From: Clostridium sp. | Lineage (GTDB): Bacteria > Bacillota > Dethiobacteria > Dethiobacterales > Dethiobacteraceae | Direction: 5' to 3' | DNA length: 64,000 bases | Assembly: GCA_018335695.1 (NCBI GenBank) | Contig: JAGXRV010000074.1 | Coordinates: forward strand, 1-64,000 | Translations under genes and position numbers: made by a program | The notes under the pieces: generated by a model | The model's database searches: none | What the model saw: the letters and a program-made list of their open reading frames with translations, nothing else | What the model was told of the DNA's origin: nothing | Part shown: positions 5,096 to 8,156 of the stretch, piece by piece | Layout: every line of letters begins with the position of its first letter | How positions within the stretch are numbered: position 1 is the stretch's first letter

Positions 5096-5184
5096 GGGAA
5101 ATTAAAAGGCAAGGTGTGTAATTCTGTTCTCGGCGGTCTAGGCAAGTTTGATTGCAGGCTATGCACAGGGATTAATGTAAATGC

Positions 5185-5214
5185 TTGACTAAGTCTGTGA
5201 GCTTGGGATATACT
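5185..5214 (+). promoter_or_regulatory. Promoter upstream of the tadA leader
   Basis: TTGACT (5185-5190), an 18-nt spacer and TATACT (5209-5214). The first gene downstream is tadA, but a terminator-like hairpin lies between. Confidence 0.55.
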
Positions 5215-5294
5215 GTTTGTGGTTGGCTATGTAGTTATGCTCTTCTTTTTTCGCAGGCTCGGTTTGCGCTGTTTGCCGGTTGTTTCGGCAGCTA

Positions 5295-5325
5295 AAAATG
5301 CCAATGCTTAACGCATTGGCATTTT
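5295..5325 (+). terminator. Hairpin with short T run before tadA
   Basis: AAAATGCCAATGC pairs perfectly with GCATTGGCATTTT around a 5-nt loop. It could end the leader transcript begun near 5220 or act as an attenuator of tadA. Confidence 0.7.
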
Positions 5326-5353
5326 ATCAATGATGCGGTTGAGAGTGATAAGC

Positions 5354-5803
5354 TTGACAGACCAGGAATTTATGCACGAGGCACTCTTCGAGGCCCGTAA
5401 AGCTTTTGATAAAGGAGAGGTGCCAATCGGCGCGGTACTTGTTCTTGACAGACAAATCATAGCTCGGGGTCATAATTTGCGTGAGGAACATGCAGATCCC
5501 ACAGCTCATGCTGAGGTTGTAGCTTTGCGGGAAGCGGCAAGAAGGCTTGGGGGCTGGCGACTGTCAAATACTACGCTCTACGTCACTATCGAACCTTGCC
5601 CTATGTGTGCCGGCGCTTTGGTTCAGGCACGGGTATCCCGACTTGTTTACGGTGCCTTGGATTTAAAAGCGGGTGCTGTTCATTCTCTTTATGCTATTAC
5701 TGAAGATGATCGTTTAAATCATCGGCTTGAAGTTACAGGCGGTATTTTGGCCGAAGAGGCTGCCAAGCTGATGCAGCAATTTTTCCGGAGCCGTCGTAAG
5801 TAG
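5354..5803 (+). CDS. tadA: tRNA-specific adenosine deaminase TadA
   Basis: Converts A34 to inosine in tRNA-Arg(ACG), whose gene lies upstream. The zinc-dependent cytidine-deaminase fold is shown by AHAEV (zinc His52, catalytic Glu54) and PCPMCAGAL (zinc Cys82 and Cys85). From TTG 5354 the protein has 149 residues, the usual size. In-frame ATGs at 5330 and 5333 directly abut the hairpin and have no ribosome site, so TTG with GAGAGTG upstream is preferred, though not with certainty. Confidence 0.92.
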   Translation: MTDQEFMHEALFEARKAFDKGEVPIGAVLVLDRQIIARGHNLREEHADPTAHAEVVALREAARRLGGWRLSNTTLYVTIEPCPMCAGALVQARVSRLVYGALDLKAGAVHSLYAITEDDRLNHRLEVTGGILAEEAAKLMQQFFRSRRK

Positions 5804-5867
5804 CAGAAAGTTTATAATTTCAGTTTTTTGGAAAGCGTTTTTCTGCTTCGGCAGTCAAACTATATAC

Positions 5868-5956
5868 GGAGGGGTATCGAAGTGGTCATAACGGGGCTGA
5901 CTCGAAATCAGTTTGCGAGCAATCGCACGCGGGTTCGAATCCCGCCCCCTCCGCCA
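5868..5956 (+). tRNA. tRNA-Ser(CGA)
   Basis: An 89-nt class II tRNA. GGAGGGG (5868-5874) pairs with CCCCTCC (5946-5952), followed by G and CCA. The anticodon stem-loop CTGA-CTCGAAA-TCAG gives anticodon CGA for UCG. A long variable arm (GCGAGCAATCGC) and a perfect T stem CGGG/CCCG are present. Confidence 0.96.
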
Positions 5957-5989
5957 TTTTGGGGCTTTTAGCCCCACCAGCAATCCAAG

Positions 5990-6018
5990 GCCTGTTAAAT
6001 ATACGACAGGCTTTTTTT
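5990..6018 (+). terminator. Terminator after tRNA-Ser(CGA)
   Basis: GCCTGT (5990-5995) pairs with ACAGGC (6006-6011), followed by seven T. Confidence 0.8.
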
Positions 6019-6049
6019 GTGCGCGCGCGGTATGCGCGACCTTGTGGAG

Positions 6050-6172
6050 AACACTAATTTACCGACAAATATAATTTTTTGTCGGTAAATTAGTGTTGAC
6101 ATCACCCCATGCTCTTTGTTATAATAACGCCAAAATACCGACGTTTGTATGTTTTTGTCGGTGATTTAGTGG
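6050..6172 (+). promoter_or_regulatory. Promoter with operator repeats for the abiEi-like gene
   Basis: A perfect inverted repeat with 20-bp arms (6050-6069 and 6078-6097) ends on the -35 box TTGACA (6096-6101). An 18-nt spacer leads to TATAAT (6120-6125). Downstream of the start, TACCGAC (6136-6142) and GTCGGTGATTTAGTG (6157-6171) repeat the right arm with few changes. The arrangement fits autorepression by the winged-helix protein encoded next. Confidence 0.85.
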
Positions 6173-6180
6173 TGATTCAA

Positions 6181-6774
6181 ATGGATAAAAATGAACTTAA
6201 AAAAGTATTTGAAAGCAACAACGGGGTGCTTAAAACCTCGCAGCTTTCTTCGCTTAAAATCGACTCCACGGATATAAAGCGTCTGATCAAAAACGGAGTT
6301 ATTGAAAAAATCAAGACAGGGTATTATCGTTTTCCATCGGACGATCTAGACGAAGCGGCCATTGTTGCCCGCCTCTTTCCTGATGGTGTGCTCTGGCTTA
6401 ATACCGCTCTTTTCTATTATGGATACAGCGACAGGACGCCAATGCAATGGGATATCATCATAAGTAAAAATGCTTCCCGCTCCCGGTTCAAAATGGATTA
6501 TCCTCATGTAAACCCGTTCTTTGTAACACCGGAGCGCCTCTCTTACGGTGTAACCACTATAGAGATTGATGGTTGTATTATGAAAATCTTTGACCGGGAC
6601 AGGCTTATTTGCGAGTGCCTCAAATACGAATCTGACATGGATAAGGAAACTTTTAATAAAGCGGTTCAGGCATACCTCACTGATCCAAAAAAAAATATTA
6701 AGAACCTTCTGGCTTATGCCAAGCGCAGAAAAGCGACAAAGCGGATGTATGATGTTATAGGGGTGTGGCTGTGA
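6181..6774 (+). CDS. AbiEi-like antitoxin / transcriptional repressor
   Basis: A 197-residue protein with an N-terminal winged-helix domain (about 1-50; LKTSQLSSLKIDSTDIKRL then NGVIEKIKTGYYRF), as in the AbiEi_4/type IV antitoxin family, followed by the family's C-terminal domain with FDRDRLICECLKY. AbiEi proteins repress their own promoter by binding inverted repeats and counter the nucleotidyltransferase toxin AbiEii. ATG 6181 is chosen since the DNA-binding domain starts there; the upstream reading frame runs through the operator. Its stop overlaps the GTG of a truncated abiEii. The gene lies in a small island after tRNA-Ser. Confidence 0.82.
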   Translation: MDKNELKKVFESNNGVLKTSQLSSLKIDSTDIKRLIKNGVIEKIKTGYYRFPSDDLDEAAIVARLFPDGVLWLNTALFYYGYSDRTPMQWDIIISKNASRSRFKMDYPHVNPFFVTPERLSYGVTTIEIDGCIMKIFDRDRLICECLKYESDMDKETFNKAVQAYLTDPKKNIKNLLAYAKRRKATKRMYDVIGVWL

Positions 6775-6821
6775 TAGATATAGGTGCTTCAGTAATTGCA
6801 AGGAGGTTGGATAATGGGTAA
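6771..6821 (+). pseudogene. Stump of an abiEii-type toxin gene
   Basis: A GTG overlapping the stop of the antitoxin gene (GTGA) opens a frame reading VIDIGASVIARRLDNG, then TAA. The start IDIGASVIARL is typical of the N-terminus of AbiEii-family nucleotidyltransferases from Bacillota, as I recall them. The rest of the roughly 250-300 residue toxin is missing. The overlap is what a translationally coupled abiEi-abiEii pair would have. The stump also contains the AAGGAGG ribosome site of the following HNH gene. Confidence 0.55.
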
Positions 6822-7359: not shown

Positions 7360-7664
7360 CCAACGTTACTACTACAGCGACATGGAGCATAACACCATGC
7401 CTTTTTTTGATTTATATTTTTTGCGCAGCTTGTGTAAATAAGGGAGTATGCGTAGACGATAAAGCAAAATTTTAATTTAAGCACATAATCCTTGTAACAA
7501 TAAGCATTTTGTGCCATTATTAAAATGCAAGAGAGGCTTTGTCGGGTTTGAAGAGGAAACATTTTGGAAAATTAGTACATCGTAAAATTCTGCCACGTGC
7601 ATTACGTGATTTGGTCGACCTATTTGAATAGACACTGTGTTCAAAAGGGAAGGGGTTGGGGATT
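7360..7664. other. Intergenic stretch after the HNH gene
   Basis: About 300 bases, mostly AT-rich. A short open frame from a TTG near 7549 (LKRKHFGKLVHRKILPRALRDLVDLFE) ends at 7632; it lacks a ribosome site and a recognisable family. No clear terminator or RNA is seen. It marks the right edge of the island. Confidence 0.4.
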
Positions 7665-8156
7665 ATGGCTAAAGATGAGTCTTTTGATGTTGTTTCCAAA
7701 GTGAATATGCAAGAAGTAGACAACGCGATTAACCAGACGAATAAGGAAATACAGCAGCGCTATGACTTTAAGAACAGTAAGGCTGCTGTAAGTCTGGAAG
7801 AGGATGCTTTGAAAATTGTGGCTGAAGATGATTTTAGATTAAAAAGTGTAATTGATATTTTGCAGACAAAATTGCTGCGCAGGCAAGTGCCAATTCAAAA
7901 TTTGGATTACGGTAAGCTGGAAAATGCCGGAGGCGGTACGGTGCGGCAGATGATTAAGTTAAAACAGGGTCTTGAAGTAGAGACGGCCAAACAGATAATC
8001 AAGGATATCAAAGGGTTGAAGTTAAAGGTTCAATCGCAAATTATGGAAGACCAAATTCGGATTTCCGGGAAAAATCGGGACGACCTGCAGCAAGTCATCG
8101 CGTTTCTAAGAGAGCAAGATTACGGCCAGGAATTGCAGTTTACTAATTATAGGTAA
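7665..8156 (+). CDS. YajQ-family nucleotide-binding protein
   Basis: A 163-residue protein matching the YajQ/UPF0234 family along its length: DESFDVVSKVNMQEVDNA at the start, QQRYDFKNSKAAV, and RISGKNRDDLQQVIAFLR near the end. The family has two ferredoxin-like domains and in some bacteria binds cyclic di-GMP and acts with a transcription factor; here the role is unknown. ATG 7665 follows GGGAAGGGG. It appears monocistronic with a terminator 45 nt downstream. Confidence 0.9.
   Translation: MAKDESFDVVSKVNMQEVDNAINQTNKEIQQRYDFKNSKAAVSLEEDALKIVAEDDFRLKSVIDILQTKLLRRQVPIQNLDYGKLENAGGGTVRQMIKLKQGLEVETAKQIIKDIKGLKLKVQSQIMEDQIRISGKNRDDLQQVIAFLREQDYGQELQFTNYR

Follow-up and report, generated by a model that had tools for sequence, protein, structure and literature searches.

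The window (the whole 64,000-nucleotide stretch of DNA that we analysed) contains an abiE locus next to a tRNA-Ser gene in which the antitoxin gene abiEi is followed by the first codons of the toxin gene abiEii, an HNH endonuclease gene, a fragment of a second toxin-antitoxin pair and a yajQ-type gene (Table 1). A genome of the same genus, Dethiobacter sp. CROMO_SB3 (G003; contig JAGXTL010000110.1), carries tadA, tRNA-Ser, abiEi, abiEii and yajQ at the same place, and the two sequences align by blastn from 5168 to 6803 and then again from 7646.

Table 1. Features of the abiE locus, with coordinates in the window
Feature	Position	Strand	Evidence
tRNA-Ser (cga), edge of the variable locus	5868..5956	+	ARAGORN; G001 has different genes after the same tRNA
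20-nt perfect inverted repeat, first AbiEi operator-like pair	6050..6097		repeat search; identical in G003
abiE promoter-like site, TTGACA-N18-TATAAT	6096..6125	+	promoter scan, 12/12
Second operator-like inverted repeat, related to the first	6126..6175		repeat search
abiEi, intact antitoxin/repressor, 197 aa	6181..6774	+	PADLOC AbiEi E 1.6e-69; 98% identical to G003 protein
abiEii stump: 11 true AbiEii codons (6771-6803), 5 foreign codons and TAA	6771..6821	+	alignment with intact G003 AbiEii
Shine-Dalgarno AAGGAGG across the junction (AAGG on the AbiEii side, AGG on the HNH side)	6800..6806	+	sequence and homology break at 6803
HNH endonuclease gene, 181 aa	6814..7359	+	Pfam HNH_5 E 1.5e-10, HNH E 5e-9
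Remnant: 3' end of Phd/YefM antitoxin and 5' end of ParE/RelE toxin	7524..7625	+	L100 match, tblastn
yajQ-type gene, right flank; G003 homology resumes at 7646	7665..8156	+	blastn

AbiEi is an antitoxin with a wHTH (Pfam AbiEi_4, E 8e-7), a feature that the locus has in common with AbiE type IV systems (AbiEi/AbiEii; PF13338, PF08843). The two inverted repeats flank the predicted abiE promoter and are operator-like, with AbiEi as their putative ligand. A similar arrangement around the promoter is found in the AbiE system of Streptococcus agalactiae, in which the second gene likewise overlaps the antitoxin stop by 4 nt (PMC3985639), as the stump frame does here (abiEi stop at 6772-6774). The promoter-like site also occurs, with small changes, in G015, L059 and L060. 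The preliminary description of this DNA had called the antitoxin and its operators intact, and this proved correct: AbiEi is full-length, and the 161 bp upstream of abiEi do not differ between the window and G003. Beyond the tRNA, an Rfam search returned nothing relevant. Unlike AbiE type IV systems, however, the window locus has no nucleotidyltransferase beside AbiEi, AbiEii being cut to 11 codons.

The frame that overlaps the antitoxin stop runs for 16 codons from GTG 6771 to TAA 6819-6821 (VIDIGASVIARRLDNG). At the DNA level, its first 11 codons (VIDIGASVIAR) do not differ from those with which the complete 299-aa AbiEii of G003 begins (Pfam AbiEii, E 5e-44), and the same start recurs in G015, L059 and L060, whose AbiEii proteins are 90-92% identical to that of G003. 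Because these codons match an intact AbiEii at the same locus and the start recurs elsewhere, the frame is a true remnant of the toxin gene and not a chance match. The homology breaks at 6803, after codon 11 counted from the GTG; at the break both sequences read GCAAGG, followed by AGGTTGG in the window versus CTTAAAAAT in G003. The last five stump codons (RLDNG) derive from the HNH side. The preliminary description was therefore right that the frame keeps the toxin's start, which matches G003 base for base over 6771-6803, and its concern that a full-length toxin might align with this start only by chance is excluded by the shared locus and the DNA identity. The stump that it gave as 16 codons is that long as a frame, but just 11 codons are AbiEii and the other five come from the HNH side. 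The HNH ribosome site that it placed inside the stump does start within the frame, but it straddles the junction. That HNH was inserted as an intron or homing element can be rejected, since the 3' part of AbiEii is missing from the sequence that follows.

The HNH gene starts at ATG 6814, 39 bp past abiEi and with 7-nt spacing from the Shine-Dalgarno. Alignment with phage HNH proteins indicates that the HNH core and the zinc cysteines are present (C47/C50/C82/C85, H63, N77 and N86), and all seven residues are invariant among the aligned proteins. Its nearest counterparts are small HNH proteins of phages (L083, L089 and others), to which it is 27-38% identical in the alignment. Like free-standing phage HNH endonucleases (L083, L089; PF01844/PF14279), it has an IPACQKCN core, zinc cysteines and a small single domain, although its identity to them is low and its C-terminal region is longer. 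It thus resembles a phage-type free-standing nuclease, with activity predicted from these motifs. No close homologue was found in the genomes, phages or plasmids searched. Protein searches of 200 genomes of relatives, 398 of the phylum and 98 of the class (overlapping sets) gave matches to the domain only, often in IscB or in other larger proteins with an HNH domain, and none over the full length. A scan of genome contigs for the protein gave 78 pattern matches with no relative among them, and the DNA of the HNH segment had only trivial matches of 34-45 bp to phages and plasmids. The AlphaFold model of the protein is of low confidence (pLDDT 56).

The HNH segment extends from AbiEii codon 11 to the C-terminal end of a Phd/YefM antitoxin. 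The fragment downstream of HNH is 81% identical over 94 bp (E 4e-18) to positions 830-923 of L100, whose genes were assigned by Pfam, and covers the end of the antitoxin gene and the beginning of the toxin gene in a Phd/YefM-ParE type II pair; the window retains only this non-functional fragment. In G003 (L047), the sequence between the abiEii stop and yajQ corresponds to the promoter and opening codons of that L100 antitoxin gene (77%, E 4e-10). From these matches, it looks as if the window and G003 keep different pieces of one decayed type II pair between abiE and yajQ. A search for an empty site found no match to yajQ in G001 or G002, and in G001 the site is occupied by other genes after the same tRNA-Ser. 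There (L192), the tRNA is followed by a short ORF and then by a nucleotidyltransferase-like ORF running into transposase-like sequence, both named by eye from translations. Different genes follow this tRNA-Ser in different species, and the site looks like a hotspot.

We examined 88 AbiEi loci on contigs (80 from genome contigs and 8 from viral contigs), as well as further AbiEi relatives from whole genomes (200 relatives and 398 genomes of the phylum, overlapping sets). AbiEii was counted as kept if at least 230 aa aligned directly downstream of AbiEi, which was so in 69 of the 88 contig loci. AbiEii is truncated or missing, with unrelated genes behind, in at least 12, and 7 loci are cut by or lie near a contig end, with under about 630 bp following abiEi. 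Genes following toxin-less AbiEi include hsdM (L138), a ResIII-type protein (L150), an XRE-cupin regulator (L149), a FAD-binding protein (L063/L125) and a phosphopantetheinyl transferase (L022), among others. An HNH gene related to that of the window accompanies AbiEi in none of the 88 contig loci and in none of the whole-genome loci examined, and none of the 8 viral loci has an HNH gene. A whole-genome search with the AbiEi of L150 as query brought back the same genomes and added little.

The hsdM case is informative about how such arrangements might arise. At L138 (2428-5635), hsdM lies 41 bp after abiEi with no abiEii between them, and L120 (from 4001) has the order abiEi-abiEii-hsdM with an hsdM 56% identical to that of L138. 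Because L120 retains the toxin gene, L138 is best read as a toxin deletion that moved the next gene up to abiEi, and the window can be explained in the same way. L138 and L150 also share the tidy look of the window, in that a mini-frame follows abiEi and its stop touches the next start codon. At L150 (4001-7490), abiEi is followed by a short mini-frame and then by the ResIII-type protein, which starts at a TAATG overlap.

The comparison with G003 establishes that the toxin was lost relative to this sister species, and likewise the junction, the intact antitoxin and promoter, and the decay of the adjoining Phd/ParE pair. On this evidence, we consider it likely that abiE lost its toxin by a recent rearrangement, that AbiEi is now an orphan, and that HNH is present by promoter capture rather than as a new toxin neutralised by AbiEi. 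The starting point would have been an abiE type IV toxin-antitoxin locus with both genes complete, next to tRNA-Ser. A recent rearrangement would then have brought the ribosome-binding site of HNH directly behind codon 11 of abiEii, the deletion probably having occurred at a short shared AAGG microhomology. The rest of the toxin would thereby have been removed, abiEi left as an orphan antitoxin and autorepressor, and HNH made the second gene of an AbiEi-repressed operon. HNH very probably shares the AbiEi-repressed promoter, judging from the layout, which also suggests co-transcription and possible translational coupling via the stump stop that overlaps the HNH start. An HNH gene downstream of an intact AbiEii occurs in no genome examined, and the order of genes before the event is therefore a reconstruction. 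The preliminary description had offered decay with a nuclease gene adjoining by chance as one of two explanations; it fits best, toxin loss behind AbiEi being recurrent with different genes next in line. Its further suggestion that HNH now stands under the old control is plausible to the extent that the layout sets the gene behind the AbiEi-controlled promoter.

Besides the lack of such a genome, two observations count against this reading. One is the tidiness of the join (a strong Shine-Dalgarno, 7-nt spacing, the overlap of stop and start, and an intact HNH motif), for which selection for expression could be a reason; the other is the undecayed state of abiEi itself. Five abiEi changes were assigned to the window branch, three of which alter the protein, and one to the G003 branch, which does not; these numbers are too small to infer relaxed selection. 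Orphan antitoxins, including those of type IV, are common (PMC7192599, PMC10790755), as in Klebsiella, where many retain the non-toxin flank only (PMC7192599). The AbiEi of the window, homologous to that of the intact G003 pair at the same locus and lacking its toxin, likewise keeps the antitoxin and upstream flank with the toxin-side context replaced. It differs from the orphans described (PMC7192599, PMC10790755) in that the intact parent is known from a sister genome and in that the next gene begins 39 bp further on and has a Shine-Dalgarno of its own at the junction.

The timing of the toxin loss was addressed by comparing divergence from G003 along the locus. Most of tadA differs by about 4%; the figure falls to about 1% between about 5768 and 6803 and stands at about 5% in yajQ. 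Synonymous differences number 3 in 197 codons of abiEi, compared with 26/162 for yajQ (p 3e-7) and 11/158 for tadA (p 0.01). Because synonymous divergence in abiEi is far below that of the flanks, the abiE segment was probably common to both lineages more recently than the flanks were, and the toxin loss itself is recent. The same gradient and the low synonymous divergence would also suit a different history, in which a G003-like tadA/tRNA-abiEi segment recombined in beside an HNH gene already resident there, through homology on the left and an AAGG microhomology join on the right, so that this lineage never had the full toxin. We regard this as unlikely. Exchange of the entire abiE followed by a separate deletion of the toxin should produce the same drop in divergence, a single genome does not allow one event to be told from two, and neither a donor nor a resident HNH locus was found.

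It is improbable that the AbiEi-repressed promoter now drives the phage-type HNH as part of a functioning defence or toxic unit regulated by AbiEi, a change of partner begun by the deletion. Even less credence can be given to the toxin swap offered as an option in the preliminary description, whereby HNH replaced AbiEii as the toxin or abortive-infection effector and AbiEi both controls and neutralises it. The operon position, the Shine-Dalgarno and the overlap of the stump end (6821) with the HNH start (6814) speak for a swap, as do an AbiEi and operators that are intact and almost unchanged from G003. However, no AbiEi-HNH pair exists among the AbiEi loci examined, let alone one conserved in independent genomes, and this is the outcome that the preliminary description had named as refuting its idea; the searches of 200, 398 and 98 genomes gave no match over the whole HNH protein, and the AbiEi loci that lack the toxin elsewhere are followed by different genes. 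HNH is a lone relative of phage HNH proteins, and the swap is not borne out. Moreover, the only known target of AbiEi antitoxicity is the nucleotidyltransferase AbiEii, by a mechanism described as non-interacting (PMC3985639), and none of the titles and abstracts examined connects AbiEi with a partner of the HNH type. The idea that AbiEi neutralises HNH is without support. A misjoin of the HNH segment into the abiE locus during assembly or binning is hardly credible even for a draft genome of 101 contigs, as both sides run into the same flanks as in G003 and the fragment downstream of HNH comes from the kind of Phd/ParE module that has left a different piece in G003.

The window provides a clean and recent case of a toxin-antitoxin operon losing its toxin, with an intact parent in a sister genome, an exact junction and the next gene apparently under the antitoxin's promoter. 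Seen beside the contrast between abiEi-hsdM and abiEi-abiEii-hsdM, this case suggests that neighbouring genes may regularly come under an autorepressed promoter when a toxin is deleted. Such captured promoters could be raw material for new regulated defence units.

Several other AbiEi loci have their own peculiarities. At L074 (2096-2986), a 296-aa ORF without a Pfam match lies right after the AbiEi gene and is possibly a very divergent toxin. At L071 (from 2640), a SIR2-like ORF (named by eye) lies downstream of abiEi and a short disrupted AbiEii start. Further AbiEii remnants within the genus add to the case for toxin loss. L203 (G001, contig C39) holds an internally deleted AbiEii remnant of 82% identity. 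The nearest other AbiEii copies in the window's own genome (G000) are divergent and on other contigs: L204 (C8) is a remnant with a 110-aa stump, and L201 (C51) is a divergent AbiEi-AbiEii pair.
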